From the IMG/VR virus record IMGVR_UViG_3300039354_000359, positions 1 through 34,714 of that record: a stretch of DNA of 34,714 bases. One strand, given 5' to 3'. Below, piece by piece: positions 18,682-34,353 of the stretch; the first letter of the stretch is position 1; each line of letters starts with the position of its first letter. The position numbers and the translations under genes were made by a program. Under the pieces are notes generated by a model, which was not told the origin of the DNA, did not search any database, and worked only from the letters and a program-made list of their open reading frames with translations. The DNA comes from a virus.

Positions 18682-19890
18682 TTACCATAATGCCGAAGCA
18701 TATACGAGGTTTGTATCTAACTCTTGTAATTTTGTAGCTCTTAATACCCTATTAATAGGATCGATCATACATTTTTCAAATTGTGTATCGTAGTCTATTT
18801 CAGGAGCTATTTCATAAGGATGTTCTCCTGGTAAATAGGCAAATATATCACAAATTGGATGTTTAGTATTATATAGTCTAAGCTTTTCGCCATTTGCTAT
18901 CATCTTGTATTTGTTTTTATATTTGGGATTGTTATTCATTAAATAGTTATAAAACCCAGCTGCTTTTACATTAGGAGGACATTTAAGTCCTATTTGAAAT
19001 TCTTTATTATCGTCTATTATATACTTATGTATGTTATTTGTTTTTCTGTTAAAGCAAATATCATCAATATCTACAAGTTTAAATTCTGTCTTACACTCTT
19101 TTAAAAACTTTACCATTTCTTGTAACTCATTAGGTCCTGGTGTTTTACCATTTTTAAAGAGAAGAGTCAATGCTTCTGTTAATTTCTTTCTAGCGAAAGA
19201 TGGAGTAGAACTCTGAATAGTATCATATCCTATTGTCTTAATTTTTTTAAGAGAAGGGTGACGATCTGTTATTGCCAATTTGTCTTCCCATGCGATATCT
19301 TGGATATATTTCTTTTTGGTCATGAATATTCCAGAATAGGCAATAGACTCTAATTCAAATACTAAGAAATTTTCAGTATTGTGAACTTTAGCATATCTTT
19401 CCATAGCAAGTCTTATGTACTCTTTAATTCTAAGATTGTAAACTTCCATCGTAAAAGTAGTTACGTCCATTTTTTTAGACTCATCTAACCATTCTACTGA
19501 ATCGTACATTTCACCGAACTGAACATAATTAGAATCTGTATCGATATAAATTACAGATGGTTTTACTAATTTATTCTTTACGGTAATTCCAAGCTTTTCA
19601 TGAATATCAGTATCTTTGTGCCAAAATTCATTAAAGTATTTGTTAAGAATTTTCTCTGAATAGAGGATAGCATTTTGACCCTGTAGAGTAATTGATTCTG
19701 CCATCTGTATGTTAAAGAAGTGAAACCACTTGTTACCAAATGCACCATAAATAGAGTTAAGGGATAACTTGACGGCTTGTTCGTAAGCGGTATATTTATT
19801 GCTTAAAACTTCACATTTGATAGCAAGTGCTTCTAATTCCTCTTTGGACAATCCATCCAAATTATTTTTGACAGTATCAACTTCGGACAT
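18682..19890 (-). CDS. 43B: DNA polymerase, C-terminal half of a split family B enzyme (T4 gp43)
   Basis: A 402-residue polypeptide carrying the rest of the polymerase whose N-terminal half is encoded at 25870-27270. It starts with a finger-helix segment (LSNKYTAYEQAVKLSLNSIY) whose motif B is KLSLNSIYGAFGN (41-53), then palm motif C VIYIDTDSNYV (113-123) with the two catalytic Asp. The thumb region follows (KKYIQDIAWEDKL onward). The exonuclease domain and motif A are absent. Both halves must associate to form an enzyme. It begins one base after the clamp gene stop, and clamp and polymerase also neighbour each other functionally in T4. Confidence 0.92.
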   Translation of the reverse strand: MSEVDTVKNNLDGLSKEELEALAIKCEVLSNKYTAYEQAVKLSLNSIYGAFGNKWFHFFNIQMAESITLQGQNAILYSEKILNKYFNEFWHKDTDIHEKLGITVKNKLVKPSVIYIDTDSNYVQFGEMYDSVEWLDESKKMDVTTFTMEVYNLRIKEYIRLAMERYAKVHNTENFLVFELESIAYSGIFMTKKKYIQDIAWEDKLAITDRHPSLKKIKTIGYDTIQSSTPSFARKKLTEALTLLFKNGKTPGPNELQEMVKFLKECKTEFKLVDIDDICFNRKTNNIHKYIIDDNKEFQIGLKCPPNVKAAGFYNYLMNNNPKYKNKYKMIANGEKLRLYNTKHPICDIFAYLPGEHPYEIAPEIDYDTQFEKCMIDPINRVLRATKLQELDTNLVYASALW

Positions 19891-25869: not shown

Positions 25870-27270
25870 CTAAAACTTTTTTTTAATTTTTTTTCGGATG
25901 TCTCGGGCCTTTTCAAAATATTCAAATGCTTTTGCTTTGTATTCCTTTCTCTGATTATATAAATCACTCTGTATTTGTTTAAGTACGGAGTCTTCATTTT
26001 TATAAACAACTCCATTTTCACAAACAATAACGTCCTTGTTTTTTCTCTTCTCTGCTATCTCTTCTTTTGAGACTTGTTCAATATATGAATCCGGTGATAT
26101 ATTAAACTGCATCATGATGGATGGGTATAGAGAAGCAAAGTCAAATGCACTTACACCGCTGTAAAAACCTGAAATAGGTTCTTTAACAAAAGCACCTGCG
26201 TATTTTCCATCTTTTTTATTGTCTTCTCTAGGTTCAGTCCCGATTCTTTTATTATCTTCCATTAATTTTCTTGCCATTAACGCCTCGGTCATAGCAACTG
26301 GACTTGCTGCTTTATAAAGTGGCATCTTCGTGATGCTTGCAAGTGTTAAAAGAACTTCCATTGATTTGATTTTTTGGTCAATATAATAGACTAGACATGA
26401 ATCGACAATGTTATAATAAACATATTTTTTATAGTCGTTTTCATACAACTCTTGAAGTCCTCCGTTATATTTAATCTTTTTAAGTTTAACAACCTGTCCT
26501 GCAACATAATCAAGTCGGTTTGATTCTTTTACTTTTACTGACCGGTCATATTTATCATACAATTGCATATAATCAAGAATGCCCATGTGAAGTGGTCTAC
26601 CATCTACTCGGTCAACTGCACCTGTTTTTGCAGATTCGCTAATATCAATTTGAAGTCTTTTACAACGATTAACTATGTATTGCCAGTCATAATTAATAAA
26701 ATTCCAACCTGTCATCATTGGAAATTTAGGCATGAATTTGTGTACGAAATTATAGACCATATCATACTCGCTTTTAAATTTGTAATATGATATGTCCCAA
26801 TCAGAGTCTAATGTTTTAAAATATTCATTGGTGTCTTTTTCCATGCCGTCAATATCTTCAAGGTCTTTAAGACCAAGAACTATTGCTTTTCTATCGGGTG
26901 TAATTATTGAAAAGTTAAGAATTCTGGTTTTAGCGTCTTCCGCTTTTGGAAAGCCATCAACAATTTCTGTTTCGATATCGACAAAATAGGTTCTTGGCAT
27001 ATTATATGCTAATATTTCATCCTGGTCTTCTTTGGGCAAACAGTCAATAAAATATATCAGACCAAATTTATTGTATCTCTTAGTGTTTACCAGTTTTACT
27101 GGTCTACCATCCCAATTCTTGATTTCTTTGTCTTTATTTCTATCTTTCTCATTAGTTACAACCCAGTTTTTGAATTGTTGAATTGGGTATCTTTTGAATG
27201 AAACATTACCTTCTTTGTTGTAATAACTTATAATGATTTCGTTTTCTTTTTGCTCTATATCTAATAACAT
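25870..27270 (-). CDS. 43A: DNA polymerase, N-terminal half of a split family B enzyme (T4 gp43)
   Basis: A 466-residue polypeptide with the proofreading exonuclease and the first part of the polymerase domain. Exo I is YFVDIETE (D98, E100), Exo II GWNFINYDWQY (D195), Exo III YYNIVDSCLV (D290). Palm motif A is FDFASLYPSIMMQFN (376-390). The protein ends in the first finger helix (QIQSDLYNQRKEYKAKAFEY, then KARDIRKKIKKKF). The second finger helix, motif B and motif C are on the separate gene at 18682-19890. The break lies at the tip of the fingers, where neither half loses a catalytic residue. No intein or homing-endonuclease sequence is seen at either end. Confidence 0.93.
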   Translation of the reverse strand: MLLDIEQKENEIIISYYNKEGNVSFKRYPIQQFKNWVVTNEKDRNKDKEIKNWDGRPVKLVNTKRYNKFGLIYFIDCLPKEDQDEILAYNMPRTYFVDIETEIVDGFPKAEDAKTRILNFSIITPDRKAIVLGLKDLEDIDGMEKDTNEYFKTLDSDWDISYYKFKSEYDMVYNFVHKFMPKFPMMTGWNFINYDWQYIVNRCKRLQIDISESAKTGAVDRVDGRPLHMGILDYMQLYDKYDRSVKVKESNRLDYVAGQVVKLKKIKYNGGLQELYENDYKKYVYYNIVDSCLVYYIDQKIKSMEVLLTLASITKMPLYKAASPVAMTEALMARKLMEDNKRIGTEPREDNKKDGKYAGAFVKEPISGFYSGVSAFDFASLYPSIMMQFNISPDSYIEQVSKEEIAEKRKNKDVIVCENGVVYKNEDSVLKQIQSDLYNQRKEYKAKAFEYFEKARDIRKKIKKKF

Positions 27271-27310: not shown

Positions 27311-27775
27311 CTAATATCCTCTTTTTTGTCTGTCGTGGTTCTCTGAATTCTTTGCCATATAAAGATTTACAATATCTTTGCTTGTCATTCCAATTGCAAG
27401 TGCAAAATTCATATAAAAATGTAAACCATCAATCCACTCGTAAAATAGTTCTAATTTATCAGATTCAGACAAATCAGAAACTTTCATTGTTGATGCTTTT
27501 TTATTGTCTTGTTTCCAATACTTCCAAGCTGCTGACCCTATACCATCGTTGATACCGCCAAGTGCGTCGAACATTTCGTTTAATTCATCACTAAGCGCAT
27601 GCTTATTTACCATCCACATATCTGCAATTTCTTTCAGGGTTAGGTCTTTGTAGTCTAAACCTAATTTAGCCTGTAATTCTCTCTGTTTTTCATAAACCAT
27701 TCCGAATGTATCTTTTACATCGGAATGAAAATCTTTAACCTCTAGGTCTGCGCATTGATTGTCGTCGTTTGCCAT
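27311..27775 (-). CDS. dut: dimeric (all-alpha) dUTPase
   Basis: A 154-residue protein of the dUTPase_2/MazG-like fold, which hydrolyses dUTP to dUMP. It shows FYEWIDGLHFYMNFALAIGM (acidic metal-binding residues in ExxD arrangement) and the C-terminal substrate motif YMAKNSENHDRQKRGY, matching the family pattern Y.aKN..N..RQ..GY. The N-terminal helix with VYEKQRELQAKLGLDYKDLT is also family-like. A second acidic pair usual in the family would be in LNEMFDALGG. It lies 40 bases upstream of the polymerase half. It keeps uracil out of phage DNA and supplies dUMP. Confidence 0.8.
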   Translation of the reverse strand: MANDDNQCADLEVKDFHSDVKDTFGMVYEKQRELQAKLGLDYKDLTLKEIADMWMVNKHALSDELNEMFDALGGINDGIGSAAWKYWKQDNKKASTMKVSDLSESDKLELFYEWIDGLHFYMNFALAIGMTSKDIVNLYMAKNSENHDRQKRGY

Positions 27776-28221: not shown

Positions 28222-28250
28222 AAAAAAAAGGGAACTGTTTAAGGTTCCCT
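28222..28250 (-). terminator. intrinsic terminator after 93-residue gene
   Basis: 7-bp stem AGGGAAC (28229-28235) with GTTCCCT (28244-28250), 8-base loop, then eight T residues on the minus strand. Confidence 0.85.
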
Positions 28251-28274
28251 CGTTTTTAATTTAATTGTTCGCAA

Positions 28275-28590: not shown

Positions 28591-29436
28591 TCAAAACAGT
28601 TTTTTAAATTTTGGGTCTTGCCTTCTTTTCTTAGGATGGAGCTGAGTTCTTACTGTAATTTTACAGTCTTCGCCGTACGTTTTAAAATTTGCATTGCTCT
28701 CATGTTGTTTTGCATATTGAGGAAACATTGTAACGAATTCGTCATAGGATTTTTTAAGTTTTGCTCCTCTATCGGGTGTATTACACCCTCCTTCCATTTC
28801 ATTTTGTCCTGTTTTTTCTCCAACATTCCATTTAACAAGTGTGAAAAAATCATTTCCTTTGTCAAACCAATCACAAAAAATATAGAGGTCTTCACACATT
28901 CCAGAAGGAGGAGCATTTCTAAAGTTACATTTTTCAAAATTAAAAGAGTCTAAATTAATACAAAATACCCAATAACAAACTGTGTTTTCTACGTAGGGAT
29001 ACCATCTTCGATCTCTACTAAAATTTAGATTTCTCATAGTACCAAGACTATATTTGTCTAAAAGGTCTTCAATATATTTAAACATTTCTACATATTCTTC
29101 TGTTGTTTTAAATGCTTTTCCTCTGCCGATAAAAGGTAATTTTGTAGACGGTTGTGGGTGATCTCCTAATTTTGTTTGATAAAATCTAACGTCGTCATCA
29201 AGAACCATTATTTTACCTGAAAATTGTTCGTTGATTCTTTGTCTAGTCTCTGCTATCCCATCTATATCTTTTCCTAAATTATGGATATTTACACCTGGAT
29301 GGGCAGTAACATACTCGTCGTACTCTTCGTCTCTGACTGCTATCCAAACATATTCTTTAACTATTTCTTCTGGCATGAATCTTATAGTGTGGTTGACTCC
29401 TGCTCTTTTATAACTTGGTATGATTATTTTTAACAT
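28591..29436 (-). CDS. GT-A glycosyltransferase, TET-associated glycosyltransferase-like
   Basis: A 281-residue nucleotide-sugar transferase. It begins MLKIIIPSYKRAGVNHTIRF, the usual first strand of GT-A enzymes, followed by GIAETRQRINEQFSG and the metal-binding KIMVLDDDVRFYQ. Later, SGMCEDLYIFCDWFDKG gives the acceptor-side acidic pair, and EMEGGCNTPDRGAK a conserved Gly/Cys turn. The arrangement IIPSYKR, tR..in, DDDv recalls phage TAGT enzymes that glycosylate modified DNA bases. I chose the ATG at 29436 because it overlaps the preceding stop as TAATG; an ATG 39 bases upstream is inside that gene. Substrate could be DNA or a surface glycan. Confidence 0.7.
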   Translation of the reverse strand: MLKIIIPSYKRAGVNHTIRFMPEEIVKEYVWIAVRDEEYDEYVTAHPGVNIHNLGKDIDGIAETRQRINEQFSGKIMVLDDDVRFYQTKLGDHPQPSTKLPFIGRGKAFKTTEEYVEMFKYIEDLLDKYSLGTMRNLNFSRDRRWYPYVENTVCYWVFCINLDSFNFEKCNFRNAPPSGMCEDLYIFCDWFDKGNDFFTLVKWNVGEKTGQNEMEGGCNTPDRGAKLKKSYDEFVTMFPQYAKQHESNANFKTYGEDCKITVRTQLHPKKRRQDPKFKKLF

Positions 29437-30611
29437 TAGAAAAGGGTTCCTTGTGAATATGTTGAAATTGCGCAAGATTCTCCTATAGTCTCTTGCGATA
29501 TTGGAGCGCTTGATCTGTTTAAGGCCATACTTTTACTTTCTCTAAGTCTTCTAAAAACTGAAAACTGACAAGTACTTATTTCACAACCAAAAGTTGTAAA
29601 CCTTCCGGTTTCTGTAACGCTATTTAAAACGCTTTCATTAATTCCACTAAAATCAAAAAACTGGTGTTGTGTATCTCTTATTTGTCTAATAACTTTTGCT
29701 CCAACATGCGAAGAGATTGAAAAACCTAAATGATTGTATAACCAATTAATAGTCTCCATTGCCCCAACACCAGGTGCAACAAAGTCGTCGTCTTCATCCA
29801 GATTTCCTGTTAGAGAACCCTCTTTTAAAAGGGCTGCTGTTCCGATTTCTGGCATTCTCGCCAGGTTAGTGCTAAAGTGATAGCCATAATAATTACCAAT
29901 ACCTCTAAAAGAAGTCAAGAAATTAAACGATTCTTCCATTGTTGGTTTCTTTTTATAGAAGTCAACAAATAGGGGACCGAGATGGGTAAACCAATAGAAC
30001 ATGTCACTTGTTCTACTTTTTCTGGTAGGATCTGGTTCTAGGCCCATTGTTTCATCATAAGGCGTTTTTATCTGTCGAGTATAATTTCTAGATTCTGTTT
30101 GAAGACTTGTTCTAAGTTCTGTAGTACCATAAATCTTTTCTTTTCTCCTCTTTGCATTTTCAAGATTGGTCATGCATTTAAGAACATAATCATTATTATT
30201 TACCAGAGAATCATATTTTATAAAATTAAAACCTGTTCCTTCGGTAATAAGATTAATTGTATTTGAAGGTCCATAAAATTTTACAATTGCTGCATTTATT
30301 AGTTTATCTTCAAATGTACATTGTGGGTTATAAAATACATTTTCATTTAGCCAAATAATCTCGTCGTGAAAAGACCTGTTTGGGTGGAAATAGGGTACTG
30401 ATCTTCCTGATACTATAAAACCATATCCAAAAACATCTTCATTTTCAAGATGTTGGAAATTATCAAATGTACATGATTTATTAAATCGAACTTCTAATTC
30501 TCTTCTATTCATTTCATGAACAAAAGTTCTTACAAGATTTATTTTTTCTTGGGGAATCAGGTCAACTAAGGCCTGTCCACTCATATTTAGTAGTTCTTTA
30601 TTTGATGTCAT
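29436..30611 (-). CDS. probable nucleobase-hypermodification enzyme (hmdU-kinase helical / aGPT-pyrophosphorylase-like domain)
   Basis: A 391-residue protein. FYNPQCTFEDKLINAAIVKF and YGPSNTINL (about 95-125), NFLTSFRGIGNYYGYHFSTN LARMP-type sequence (about 235-260), and DEDDDFVAPGVGAMETINWL (about 285-305) resemble the DNA-glycosylase-like helical domain of phage 5-hmdU DNA kinases and alpha-glutamyl/putrescinyl-thymine pyrophosphorylases: family pattern f.d.L....f..fn..eT; G.g.f..y....dl; D..f..pGpGa. It contains no P-loop, so it is not a complete kinase. The C-terminus is Ser/Arg-rich and unassigned. I chose the ATG at 30611, four bases after the preceding stop. Assignment rests on pattern memory only; the family call is moderate. 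Confidence 0.55.
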   Translation of the reverse strand: MTSNKELLNMSGQALVDLIPQEKINLVRTFVHEMNRRELEVRFNKSCTFDNFQHLENEDVFGYGFIVSGRSVPYFHPNRSFHDEIIWLNENVFYNPQCTFEDKLINAAIVKFYGPSNTINLITEGTGFNFIKYDSLVNNNDYVLKCMTNLENAKRRKEKIYGTTELRTSLQTESRNYTRQIKTPYDETMGLEPDPTRKSRTSDMFYWFTHLGPLFVDFYKKKPTMEESFNFLTSFRGIGNYYGYHFSTNLARMPEIGTAALLKEGSLTGNLDEDDDFVAPGVGAMETINWLYNHLGFSISSHVGAKVIRQIRDTQHQFFDFSGINESVLNSVTETGRFTTFGCEISTCQFSVFRRLRESKSMALNRSSAPISQETIGESCAISTYSQGTLF

Positions 30612-30615
30612 ATTT

Positions 30616-31314
30616 TTATTTATAAAATAGACAGTCATGTGCCCAAACTGCTTTAAAAACTATAAGAGGTTCTATTTCTGAATGTTTATATTTTTCTTTT
30701 AAAAGATCTGTATACAATTGCATGTTCTCTTCGTTTTTACCTGTTCCATGTAATTCTATAAAAAGAACTTCTGGAAAATAGTCTAAAATCTCATCCATAA
30801 GGGTATATTCTGCTCCCTCAATATCTATTTTTATTATCTGTGGTTTATATTTTTCTAGTAAGGTTGATATGTGAACGTTATCTACTTCGTCATATTCAGT
30901 GTATCTACTCTTTCCGTAAATTGTAGTACTACAGTGTTTGTTTTTAGCGCTTGATTTATATAACTTTAGCTTTTCAACATGAGTTCCAGTAACAGCAGCT
31001 TCTATTAAATTTACCGAAGTATCTCCTTTAAAACTTTCTTCTAATTTACTAAAATTTCTATGATCGCATTCTACTGCGGTAACATGTTTTGCTCCAAGGT
31101 CTAGTGCTATTTGAGTAAATGCTCCAACATTTGACCCAAGGTCTAAACAGACTTTATCAGTATAATCTATTTGAGGTTTATAATAATTATCAATGGACTC
31201 ATTTATCATTCCATTATCTACGCCTTCAGTTGCGTTTAACTTTTCTGCGTATGTTTTTCTAATTCTTCTCCTGTCTTTTGTAGACATCGGTAATTGTGGG
31301 AGTTCTATTCTCAT
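30616..31314 (-). CDS. FkbM-family SAM-dependent methyltransferase
   Basis: A 232-residue methyltransferase. KVCLDLGSNVGAFTQIALDL is the SAM-binding motif I (DxGxNxG), AVECDHRNFSKLEESF motif II with the acidic ribose-binding residue, and IIKIDIEGAEYTLMDEILDY the FkbM-typical KIDIEGAE. The family O-methylates sugars or small molecules. The start was chosen at 31314 because that ATG overlaps the HAD stop as ATGA; an ATG 48 bases earlier overlaps the HAD gene far more. It sits between HAD phosphatase and hypermodification-like enzyme in one operon, so its acceptor may be the product of that pathway. Confidence 0.85.
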   Translation of the reverse strand: MRIELPQLPMSTKDRRRIRKTYAEKLNATEGVDNGMINESIDNYYKPQIDYTDKVCLDLGSNVGAFTQIALDLGAKHVTAVECDHRNFSKLEESFKGDTSVNLIEAAVTGTHVEKLKLYKSSAKNKHCSTTIYGKSRYTEYDEVDNVHISTLLEKYKPQIIKIDIEGAEYTLMDEILDYFPEVLFIELHGTGKNEENMQLYTDLLKEKYKHSEIEPLIVFKAVWAHDCLFYK

Positions 31315-31754
31315 TTTTCTACTAGTTTTGAAATTACTTCTACTATTTCTATTTTTGGCCATTTTTCCTTGATTATTTTGGCCTGTACTCTATCGTCTTC
31401 AAAAAATCTTTGGACATGTATTCTATTAGCCTTTAGATTTCGAATCGTTATTGCTTTATGTTTTCCAGAATGTCTTCTTGCTGATAGGGTATGATTTCCT
31501 CTTTCTTCAAGAGTCATAGGGTTAAAATAAACCTTGTTTTTAATACCTCTTTCTTTTAAAATGGCATAAACATATTCGGTTTCATCAATGCACCTTCCTG
31601 TTATTATAACATCGTTTTCATTTCTAGGGTTTATTCCTAGAGAAACTACTCCATCAAAATCATAACCATAAATTTCTATGTGTTTTGGTTTAACAGGTTC
31701 TGGTTTGTTAAACTGTAAAAGTTTTCTTAAAAAATTAAATTTCATTTTATACAT
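31311..31754 (-). CDS. HAD-superfamily phosphatase
   Basis: A 147-residue hydrolase with HAD motifs: IYGYDFDGVVS (nucleophile DxDGV, about 30-36), VIITGRC (motif II Thr), HSGKHKA (motif III Lys) and RFFEDDRVQA (motif IV acidic pair). No cap domain is evident, so it acts on exposed or large substrates. It follows the inositol-phosphate synthase by two bases and overlaps the methyltransferase gene. A phosphatase releasing free inositol, or acting on a later intermediate, would fit this place. That is inference. Confidence 0.8.
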   Translation of the reverse strand: MYKMKFNFLRKLLQFNKPEPVKPKHIEIYGYDFDGVVSLGINPRNENDVIITGRCIDETEYVYAILKERGIKNKVYFNPMTLEERGNHTLSARRHSGKHKAITIRNLKANRIHVQRFFEDDRVQAKIIKEKWPKIEIVEVISKLVEK

Positions 31755-31756
31755 TT

Positions 31757-32986
31757 TTAGTTTTTAGATACTTTTTCTTGTTCTTTTCTAATTGATGTTA
31801 CTTTGTTAGCAATTACTTGCTTTTTAGTAGTTGTTGTCAATTTTCTATTTGCCAATGCTTCGCATTCTTGAACGGCATCTGCAAACATCATCTGTTTTGG
31901 TGGAGTTTTTTGAGTGAACGCTGATGGACCTCTTAGGGCTCCAACAATTCCCATTTCTCTTGCAACTCTCACATATCTTAATGCATCAATTACAACTCCT
32001 GCAGAGTTTGGACTATCTTGAACGGATAGTTGAGCATCAAATAGAACTGGTGCACCTCCAAAACCTTCAAGTTCCAATCTAAAATTGGCTACTTTATTAT
32101 CACCATAATAGGCAATATATTCAGAAGGACCAGCATGTAAAAAGCTGTCTTCGGTAGAGATACCTCTAATTTCATTCTGGGCTCTAATAACATTTTCTTT
32201 AGAAATTTTCTTAGATTGAAGTCTTCCTTTGTCTTCCATATTTAAAAAGTCTGTGTTACCTCCAACATTTCTTTGAATGTGTGCTTTAACAACATGACCT
32301 CTTTCGAATGCCAATTCTTGTAACATTTGAGAAAGAATAGATGCTCCAAATTGACTTCTCATATCATCTCCAACGATTGGAATACCTGCATCAATAAATC
32401 TCTTTTCCCAAGATGGGTTAGATGCTATAAATACTGGGATGCAGTTTACGAATGAAACTCCAGTTGCTAAACAAATTTCAGCCCAAAATTCTGTTGCCTT
32501 TTGAGACCCTACTGGAAGATAGTTAACCAATACTTCAACTTCATGTTTGTTAATCAGATTAATTACCTTTTCTTTCCATTCATTTTCTTTCTTTTTAGTC
32601 CAAGAAACTCTATTCATTTCAGAACTATTTCTCAATTTTTCAGAAACTAAAAACCTGTCTTTTTCTGGGTAGGCATCCATAAGAAGTGCATAACCATCAA
32701 TCACTGGACCTTCATATACTGGTGCCTTTGATTTAATTTTTTTAACAATATCATAAGCGCTATTTGGTCTCTGTTTAAGAGCTTCTCCTAATGGAAGATT
32801 AACTTTACGTTCGTCAATATCAAACCCGCAAACGAATTCTATATTTTCTGCTTTATAACCTCCAATATCTTCTCTCATCATACCATTTGCTGATACTTCT
32901 TTTTCAGAATAATATTGGACTCCTTCTACTAAGGACTTAGCGCAATTCCCTACGCCGATAATTCCTACTTTGATTTTTTTACTCAT
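31757..32986 (-). CDS. ino1: myo-inositol-1-phosphate synthase
   Basis: NAD-dependent enzyme making 1D-myo-inositol 3-phosphate from glucose 6-phosphate. The Rossmann motif GIIGVGNCAKSLVEGVQYYS opens the protein. Family-diagnostic blocks follow: LVNYLPVGSQKATEFWAE, FVNCIPVFIASNPSWEKRF, PIVGDDMRSQFGASI, NVGGNTDFLNMEDKGRLQSK with KISK, FGGAPVLFDAQLSVQDSPNS and AGVVIDALRYVRVA. The 409 residues fit the bacterial/archaeal type. I know of no common phage gene of this kind; its place at the head of a HAD-methyltransferase-glycosyltransferase operon implies inositol is built into something specific. Confidence 0.95.
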   Translation of the reverse strand: MSKKIKVGIIGVGNCAKSLVEGVQYYSEKEVSANGMMREDIGGYKAENIEFVCGFDIDERKVNLPLGEALKQRPNSAYDIVKKIKSKAPVYEGPVIDGYALLMDAYPEKDRFLVSEKLRNSSEMNRVSWTKKKENEWKEKVINLINKHEVEVLVNYLPVGSQKATEFWAEICLATGVSFVNCIPVFIASNPSWEKRFIDAGIPIVGDDMRSQFGASILSQMLQELAFERGHVVKAHIQRNVGGNTDFLNMEDKGRLQSKKISKENVIRAQNEIRGISTEDSFLHAGPSEYIAYYGDNKVANFRLELEGFGGAPVLFDAQLSVQDSPNSAGVVIDALRYVRVAREMGIVGALRGPSAFTQKTPPKQMMFADAVQECEALANRKLTTTTKKQVIANKVTSIRKEQEKVSKN

Positions 32987-33032
32987 AATTTATTTTATTG
33001 TTTTAATTTATACTCGGTTTTTAGATTTTGTT

Positions 33033-34082
33033 TCAAAAGAGACTTAATGTTTTTTGTTTAAGCTCTCCATTATCTTCTCCACTATCAAAATCGTAGTGGT
33101 AATATTGTCTTGATAAGTGAACACTTCCAGGTTTTTCCATATAAGTGTCTGCAAATTCTTTTGGATGGGTCTCGTACCAGTGTCTTGGCCATTCTTTAAA
33201 TTCCCAACCTTTTTCTTCACAAAGTCTTCTAACAACCTGATTAAACCCTATCATGATTTTTGTTCTTGCCTCTTGGGTTCCAATAAATGGACTTCCTTTA
33301 TACCATCCTGTTTTTGGAATTCTTCTCTCTTCATACTCGATTGGTAAAAGAGCAACTACTGTAATTTTTGGAATATTTAAAGTTTCAAGGTGTTTAATAT
33401 AATCTTCAGCAAGGGTTATTGTTGAAAACAACGGATCTTTTTGTCTACCAAGATGGTGTCTAATATCTATATTTCCAAAATATGAAATAAGATGTTTTGT
33501 CCCTTCTGGAATATAGTTTTGCATTCCTTCTTTAAGAATTCCATAAAGTGTTTTACCATCATTTCTAGAGATATTTGCTCCAGGTTTATATGCTGAAACT
33601 GAATGACTATCACCTAATACAAAAGTATCCGATTCTAATGTAAGATCTATTGTTTTTATATTTTTTGAAATTTCTGAAAGTTTTTCAGTGTCAAGTTCGG
33701 ACCATTTTTGAGAACATGATTTCATTCTACTTTCTGCAAATTTACCAATATCTGGCATTTCTCTATTAATACAAAATATAGGTCCTTTAAAATCTAATAG
33801 TCTTTGAATTCTTTCAGCAGTTTCGTCTTGTGCTCCGCCAAAAAGATTATAACTTCCAGCGAATTCCATTGGAAGTACAATAAACCACGCATCATAGTCG
33901 TGAACATTTTCTGATTTTGTTAATACATCACAATCTAAACCAACATGATTCAACTGGTGTTTTAGCATGTATGTCCAGGCAGATTTGTGTGAAGTCTTTT
34001 TATCGCTAAATGTTGTTACAACATCGTCAATAGCAATTTTAGCCCATGTTCCTAATTCCCAAATATCATTTACTTTTACCAT
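33033..34082 (-). CDS. SGNH-like hydrolase
   Basis: A 349-residue protein. TFVLGDSHSVSAYKPG gives an SGNH block I (GDSH, nucleophile Ser), SYFGNIDIRHHLGRQKD resembles block III with Asn, and GSVHLSRQYYHY a block V-type His. Between them are VVALLPIEYEERRIPKTGWY and FNQVVRRLCEEKGWEF. The first 150 residues (WTYMLKHQLNHVGLDCDVLT, AWFIVLPMEFAGSYNLFGGA) look like a separate alpha/beta domain. It could be an esterase or acyltransferase acting on the cassette's product. It overlaps the DUF6378 gene by 17 bases and lies 46 bases before ino1. Confidence 0.6.
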   Translation of the reverse strand: MVKVNDIWELGTWAKIAIDDVVTTFSDKKTSHKSAWTYMLKHQLNHVGLDCDVLTKSENVHDYDAWFIVLPMEFAGSYNLFGGAQDETAERIQRLLDFKGPIFCINREMPDIGKFAESRMKSCSQKWSELDTEKLSEISKNIKTIDLTLESDTFVLGDSHSVSAYKPGANISRNDGKTLYGILKEGMQNYIPEGTKHLISYFGNIDIRHHLGRQKDPLFSTITLAEDYIKHLETLNIPKITVVALLPIEYEERRIPKTGWYKGSPFIGTQEARTKIMIGFNQVVRRLCEEKGWEFKEWPRHWYETHPKEFADTYMEKPGSVHLSRQYYHYDFDSGEDNGELKQKTLSLF

Positions 34083-34353
34083 CTTTTTCGTCTATATAAT
34101 TATCTAATGCTCCTATGTATGCAACTGCATCAAGAAGGTTATCTCTTTTGTGATTGTAGCTTTCTCTAGAAAACTTAAGCGCTATAAGCGCCATATACAT
34201 TTCACGGCCTGTAACATTTAAACCTGTCATTCCGTTAAATATTGAAGCTGCTCTATCCATACCTTCTGAAAAAGGACCATATTGTCTCTCTTTTTCTTCA
34301 GATCGGTTGTTGATTATTTCATCAGCTTCTTTTAATATACTCTTTTTCTTCAT
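34066..34353 (-). CDS. DUF6378-like protein
   Basis: A 95-residue helical protein. LKEADEIINNRSEEKERQYG then FNGMTGLNVTGREMYMALIA and LKFSRESYNHKRDNLLDAVA YIGAL-type sequence matches a family common in phages (E A..i....R...YG....n......w....g...t......m...K.aR.....h.DnliD...Y). Size and helical pattern recall small MazG-like nucleotide-binding folds, but function is unknown. It opens the ino1 cassette: a TATAAT lies four bases upstream of the ATG. Confidence 0.7.
   Translation of the reverse strand: MKKKSILKEADEIINNRSEEKERQYGPFSEGMDRAASIFNGMTGLNVTGREMYMALIALKFSRESYNHKRDNLLDAVAYIGALDNYIDEKDGKSK

Follow-up and report, generated by a model that had tools for sequence, protein, structure and literature searches.

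A seven-gene cassette in a marine T4-like phage

We analysed a 34,714-nucleotide stretch of DNA (IMG/VR record IMGVR_UViG_3300039354_000359; hereafter the window), a 34.7 kb fragment of a marine T4-like phage that carries head, replication and ribonucleotide-reductase genes. Its minus strand holds, at positions 28591-34353, seven open reading frames encoding a DUF6378 protein, an SGNH/GDSL-fold enzyme, myo-inositol-phosphate synthase (MIPS), a HAD-family protein, an FkbM-type methyltransferase, a protein of the HEL (HMUDK_hel) family and a TAGT-type glycosyltransferase. Judging from sequences and structure models, this cassette probably hypermodifies a base of phage DNA with inositol, cytosine being the likeliest base. 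The evidence consists of the gene families, a conserved gene order, a gene fusion, co-occurrence and conserved active-site residues. The cassette and adjacent features are as follows.

34066..34353, minus strand: DUF6378 protein, first cassette gene (PF19905, 2e-11); position kept in about 80 loci
33033..34082, minus strand: SGNH/GDSL-fold enzyme (phrog_13881, 2e-60; N-terminal half of phrog_17781)
31757..32986, minus strand: MIPS (PF01658, Inos-1-P_synth, 7e-22)
31311..31754, minus strand: HAD protein, predicted inositol-phosphate phosphatase (HAD motifs)
30616..31314 (start 31314 or 31362), minus strand: FkbM-type methyltransferase, predicted decoration (PF05050, 4e-12)
29436..30611, minus strand: HEL (PF18723, 1e-9; C-terminal half of phrog_17781, 8e-88)
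28591..29436, minus strand: TAGT-type glycosyltransferase, predicted lineage-specific decoration (PF20691, 3e-9; phrog_842, 1e-28)
28228..28251, minus strand: terminator-like hairpin past the cassette (weak; 4 found against 3.2 expected by chance)
27311..27775, minus strand: dCTPase/dUTPase-like pyrophosphohydrolase, gp56 homologue (37% identity to gp56 of phage 44RR, 3e-25)

An earlier annotation made from the letters of the window alone (the original prediction) had reported seven genes here, all of which are present on the minus strand at the positions given, and had described them as overlapping or nearly touching. Most junctions agree with this description: DUF6378 and SGNH overlap by 17 bases, MIPS and HAD are 2 bases apart, HAD and FkbM overlap in an ATGA at 31314-31311 (with a further upstream ATG at 31362), HEL follows FkbM after 4 bases given the start at 30611 that homologues favour, and HEL and TAGT meet in a TAATG at 29436. 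However, SGNH and MIPS are separated by 46 bases. Curated Pfam cut-offs are exceeded by the DUF6378, MIPS, FkbM, HEL and TAGT products. These include the two matches that the original prediction had proposed to look for, namely HEL against PF18723 (38.6 bits, cut-off 25) and the last gene product against the TAGT profile PF20691 (37.4 bits, cut-off 27.5).

The identification of MIPS is likewise upheld by its Pfam match. Its best solved match is the Mycobacterium tuberculosis inositol-3-phosphate synthase (1gr0, 7e-79), followed by a five-membered-cyclitol-phosphate synthase (6k96, 2e-44). Lysines 259/260/263, 298 and 360 of the phage protein are invariant among phage MIPS and align with the MIPS catalytic lysines, so that by sequence the window protein has both the domain and the catalytic residues of a MIPS. 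The HAD product has no Pfam match; its motifs DxDGV, ITGR, K and EDD are intact and are common to homologues in Caulobacter phage Cr30 and in the Menderavirus phage Mendera. The TAGT family phrog_842 is annotated as beta-glucosyl-HMC-alpha-glucosyltransferase. The closest phage matches of the TAGT product are T-even-type DNA glucosyltransferases, and most of the listed matches adjoin or overlap a gene of the dCMP-hydroxymethylase or thymidylate-synthase family.

Conservation of the cassette and the SGNH and HEL proteins

The order DUF6378-SGNH-MIPS-HAD-FkbM-HEL is kept in about 80 IMG/VR contigs, a recurrence indicating that it is more than chance (each scan supplied its 80 best loci rather than a random sample). 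Across relatives SGNH-MIPS-HAD-HEL forms the core. The contents of the FkbM slot vary: the slot is empty in one locus (L007), holds a homologue of T4 beta-glucosyltransferase instead in two (L014 and L018), and both genes are present in L044, L046 and L047. This homologue aligns over its full length at 28% identity (E 4e-19); against PF09198 (4e-7) the L044 copy passes the cut-off and the L014 copy falls just below. Among the cassette loci compared, the window alone has the TAGT gene. In L036, L038 and L039 the HEL protein is only about 25% identical to that of the window, with SGNH and MIPS at 91-94% identity, and HEL looks like an attachment gene swapped within an otherwise near-identical cassette. 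The building block would then stay constant as attachment and decoration change, as expected under restriction pressure. The gp56-like gene directly follows HEL in many relatives and adjoins the cassette in most loci; the window has TAGT and small genes between the two. A scan of bacterial genome contigs for SGNH gave only 12 matches, in metagenome-assembled bins and probably on phage contigs.

Sequence searches of solved structures with the SGNH and HEL profiles gave no usable match, and ribosomal S15 matches of the SGNH profile were taken as chance. Residues 150-337 of the SGNH model (pLDDT 84) match GDSL hydrolases with Z up to 11.9, and all of 41 sequences from distant phages keep Ser159, Gly203, Asn204 and His322. 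The window protein thus combines the modelled fold and the invariant Ser, Gly, Asn and His of the SGNH/GDSL superfamily. For the HEL model (pLDDT 81), Foldseek alone returned no significant match, and DNA glycosylases surfaced only in a second structural comparison. There, the top matches were three HhH-GPD DNA glycosylase chains (Z 7.2-7.3 over 178-181 residues); the first unrelated fold below them scored Z 3.9. Because these Z values are modest, a DNA-glycosylase-like fold is probable rather than certain. The HEL alignment also contains an invariant hairpin-like motif, GxYYGYHxST.

In Aeromonas phage 44RR, SGNH and HEL are fused into one protein (ORF233c, 795 aa), the representative of phrog_17781, a single family whose two halves match SGNH and HEL. 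The two proteins may work jointly on DNA, with HEL as the predicted base-flipping subunit. In 44RR (NC_005135, L099:6283-10263) the fusion gene adjoins ORF234c, which encodes a sodium:solute symporter resembling glucose/galactose carriers; the building block there might be imported and not made. Inositol specificity of this symporter is unsupported, its nearest solved structures being glucose/galactose carriers.

SGNH also has other partners. It is fused to another family (X, our alignment A4) in L185 (L185:2379-4739), and SGNH and X are paired, often together with a pyridoxal-phosphate (PLP)-type enzyme, in L182, L184, L187-L190, L192-L194, L200, L202 and L203. In some of these loci a small kinase and a dCMP-type hydroxymethylase are present too. 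The SGNH-X loci have no MIPS, and perhaps form a sister system that places an amino acid on cytosine. Profile comparison of HEL, family X and the amino acid:DNA transferase (ADDT) of phage Cr30 detected no mutual similarity. In phages 25 (L129:5788-9059) and IME13 (L131:3267-7044), SGNH stands beside UDP-galactopyranose mutase and an uncharacterised 358-aa protein at the position of the 44RR symporter and SGNH-HEL genes, an arrangement that possibly serves a galactofuranose-type modification. Because its partners vary among HEL, family X and UDP-galactopyranose mutase, SGNH may be a shared core around which supplier genes are exchanged. The original prediction had recognised an SGNH-like protein, and this identity stands; the fusions in 44RR and L185 make SGNH look more like a core partner of the enzyme that acts on DNA than like the optional acylase it suggested.

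MIPS genes beside DNA-hypermodification genes

We scanned IMG/VR with a MIPS alignment and, after removal of near copies, obtained 43 viral loci, most with flanks of up to 8 kb. All but one (42 of 43) lie near DNA-hypermodification genes, as do all 37 of the loci of at least 8 kb. The settings are of three kinds: SGNH/HEL (19 loci), TET and/or ADDT (16) and 7-deazaguanine (7). L209, the lone exception, comes from a contig of 6 kb that carries a kinase typical of the TET/ADDT class. HAD accompanies MIPS in 36 of the 43. Control loci were drawn with an alignment of phage NrdB, the Cr30 NrdB query alone having given six loci; hypermodification genes occur in 2 of the 80 controls and in 2 of the 46 that reach at least 8 kb. 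The MIPS loci were used to broaden the hidden Markov models (HMMs) for TET, ADDT and Que proteins, with Pfam serving for seeds and spot checks, and Pfam confirms ADDT (1.9e-10) and TET (7e-23) in loci besides Cr30. Parsimony on a tree of MIPS (a quick tree with some long branches) asks for about 12 changes among the three settings, several of them forced by well-supported branches, which indicates that the MIPS gene has moved repeatedly between chemistries.

Two of the settings occur in cultured phages. Phage Cr30 has a TET/JBP oxygenase (gp129, 8e-21), an ADDT (gp123, 1e-52), a TAGT-like protein (gp122), MIPS (gp121), HAD (gp118) and a kinase-like protein (gp114). Three of these are annotated otherwise: gp129 (L102:6709-8037) as SNF2 repair protein, gp123 (L102:9735-10964) as hypothetical, and gp114 (L102:15057-15602), which belongs to the P-loop kinase family of TET/ADDT-type cassettes, as terminase small subunit. 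In Menderavirus, MIPS-HAD lies within folE-queC-TGT-queE. TET/JBP was sought in the SGNH/HEL relatives and not found.

A broader proposal, for and against which we find the case about evenly balanced, is that viruses in general use inositol as an exchangeable building block of their DNA, with a single MIPS-HAD module feeding three base chemistries: hydroxymethylcytosine via SGNH-HEL, TET-oxidised pyrimidine via kinase and ADDT, and 7-deazaguanine. SGNH-HEL would then be a kinase-free route for hypermodifying cytosine.

A predicted pathway to an inositol-bearing cytosine

Cytosine is most likely the modified base in the window phage, judging from the second thymidylate-synthase-family gene of its relatives. 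At the position of T4 gp42 residue 179 this paralogue has Asp, as in gp42, in G001, G005, G006, 44RR, avDM9, phage 25, IME13, PTm1 (a divergent copy with one stop in the record) and L091. Canonical thymidylate synthases and the SPO1 dUMP hydroxymethylase (gp29) have Asn there, so the relatives' paralogue is not of the dUMP type. The dCMP-type gene occurs in all three relatives of at least 145 kb (G001, G005 and G006) and in the SGNH-bearing isolates examined. It lies inside the cassette in several lineages (order TSD-DUF6378-dUTPase-SGNH-MIPS-HAD-HEL), that of L091 among them. The hydroxymethylase that the original prediction had suggested seeking is thus found in relatives. The product of 27311-27775 has the sequence features of a gp56-type dCTPase-dUTPase. 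Alternatively, the precursor could be 5-hydroxy-dC, made by the same enzyme family as in Mosigvirus (PMC13390438).

In the pathway we propose, the dCMP-type paralogue, expected outside the window fragment, and the gp56-like dCTPase would yield 5-(hydroxymethyl)cytosine in DNA. MIPS would convert glucose-6-phosphate to inositol phosphate, from which HAD would strip the phosphate to give free inositol. HEL would flip out the base and SGNH would activate the hydroxymethyl group or form the bond, joining the inositol, which FkbM may then methylate and TAGT glycosylate. The substrates and the order of the steps are predicted, and the division of labour between SGNH and HEL is tentative. The TET/ADDT setting has a P-loop kinase and an ADDT, neither of which was found in the SGNH/HEL setting; SGNH may therefore take over activation. 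This is the least secure point of the scheme. The TAGT product, a homologue of beta-alpha-glucosyltransferase, is a predicted glycosyltransferase with inositol as its presumed acceptor. In outline this is the pathway that the original prediction envisaged, with inositol made, attached and decorated; its DNA target gains support from family, order and co-occurrence, and cytosine is now the likeliest base.

Several observations weigh against this interpretation. A dCMP hydroxymethylase was found neither in the 34.7 kb window nor in seven relatives of 69-95 kb, all fragments; its absence from the window reflects either the incompleteness of the sequence or a phage without the enzyme. Phage 44RR has no MIPS and its symporter resembles a glucose/galactose carrier, which makes inositol there uncertain, and in phage 25 the neighbour of SGNH is UDP-galactopyranose mutase and not MIPS. 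The structural match of HEL is modest (Z 7.3) and its function a prediction. Finally, widening the HMMs on MIPS loci raises sensitivity there.

Other explanations share parts of this evidence. The modification might be real with the MIPS-family enzyme making another cyclitol or sugar-derived group for DNA, as the second rank of 6k96 among solved matches and the glucose/galactose-type symporter beside SGNH-HEL in 44RR could suggest. We consider this unlikely, given that the phage protein is far nearer the M. tuberculosis enzyme (7e-79 against 2e-44) and that its catalytic-aligned lysines are invariant. A similarly small chance attaches to a scheme in which SGNH and HEL add some other group to cytosine, and inositol or an inositol glycoside goes only onto that group or is the acceptor of the glycosyltransferase. 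Such a scheme would fit the SGNH genes of loci that lack MIPS, where the neighbours are UDP-galactopyranose mutase (phage 25) or family X and a PLP-type enzyme; however, the FkbM and glycosyltransferase genes vary far more among HEL cassettes than MIPS and HAD do.

Less probable still, the cassette might place inositol on a glycan or lipid of the host or virion, and the DNA-modification genes would be chance neighbours. FkbM, glycosyltransferase, HAD and SGNH proteins are generally frequent in surface-glycan loci, but HEL and TAGT are DNA-modification families, SGNH is fused to HEL, and a T4 beta-glucosyltransferase homologue occupies the FkbM slot in sister cassettes. Nucleotide-sugar, polymerase or export genes were not found as cassette neighbours in the window or its relatives; the neighbours are replication, ribonucleotide-reductase and nucleotide genes. 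A cell-surface glycan locus, which the original prediction had named as the contrary case, is disfavoured because nearly all viral MIPS loci stand beside hypermodification genes, against 2 of 80 controls.

The inositol-on-cytosine pathway resembles several known systems in part. In thymidine hypermodification (5hmdU DNA kinase, ADDT and PLP enzymes; ViI and M6), a pyrimidine is likewise hydroxymethylated first, after which dedicated enzymes extend it on the DNA. HEL belongs to the helical-domain family that takes its name from the hmdU kinase (PF18723), and the Cr30-type MIPS setting shares TET, P-loop kinase and ADDT with this system. In contrast, SGNH partners HEL in our cassette, the base looks like cytosine and the group is a polyol rather than an amino acid derivative. 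The kinase-like P-loop family (PF18751-type) was confined to MIPS loci of the TET/ADDT type and two short contigs, with none found in SGNH/HEL loci, although other kinase families may lie elsewhere in the genome. ADDT (PF18724) had no match in G001, G005, G006, 44RR, avDM9 or phage 25. T-even 5hmC glucosylation (gp42, gp56, alpha- and beta-gt, beta-alpha-gt) shares the dCMP-type hydroxymethylase of the relatives, the gp56-like enzyme, the TAGT relationship to T-even-type DNA glucosyltransferases and the T4 beta-gt homologue of sister cassettes. It differs in that an inositol pathway and SGNH-HEL here stand between hmC and the glycosyltransferase, with FkbM methylation as an extra. For the 5-arabinosyl-dC of Mosigvirus (RB69, NP), likewise T4-like, cytosine is modified by means of a gp42-family synthase and a cluster dedicated to sugar supply; unlike our cassette, no SGNH or HEL is reported (PMC13390438). 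The queuosine-like cluster of Menderavirus (Stenotrophomonas phage Ps15) shares MIPS-HAD with a guanine-type rather than cytosine chemistry; the authors who described it interpret the cluster as one for queuosine in tRNA, and its MIPS as a gene acquired from bacteria (PMC9025141).

We found no relevant paper on inositol as a phage DNA modification in the open-licence literature, and publication elsewhere is possible. If correct, our interpretation would add a polyol to natural DNA chemistry and reveal a logic common to hundreds of viral contigs, in which a group is made, attached, methylated and glycosylated. Such a modification would help to shield phage DNA from the enzymes of bacteria. Gene 42, which encodes dCMP hydroxymethylase, occurs in phages 44RR, 31 and 25, none of which has a known glucosyltransferase, and whether another group protects their DNA is an open question (PMC2993671). 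We confirmed gene 42 in the 44RR record and found the SGNH gene in all three. The cassette bears on whether 44RR and 31 carry another protecting group, which can be tested in these cultured phages. Because inositol and glucose share a formula, glucosyl-hmC and its inositol counterpart would be isobaric; mass alone could miss inositol, and a glucosyl-hmC mass need not mean glucosyl-hmC.

Further genes were noted in passing. In one lineage a cytosine C5 DNA methylase lies beside MIPS-HAD-HEL-SGNH (L245:7207-8427, PF00145 4e-14, with same-family genes in related loci). Cr30 gp107 (L102:18858-19658) strongly matches the CBASS inhibitor Acb3 in Pfam (2e-68). The DNA polymerase of the window is split into genes at 18682-19890 and 25870-27270, and the roughly 6 kb that separate them contain ribonucleotide reductase genes; the polymerase of 44RR is likewise split, but its two genes are adjacent.

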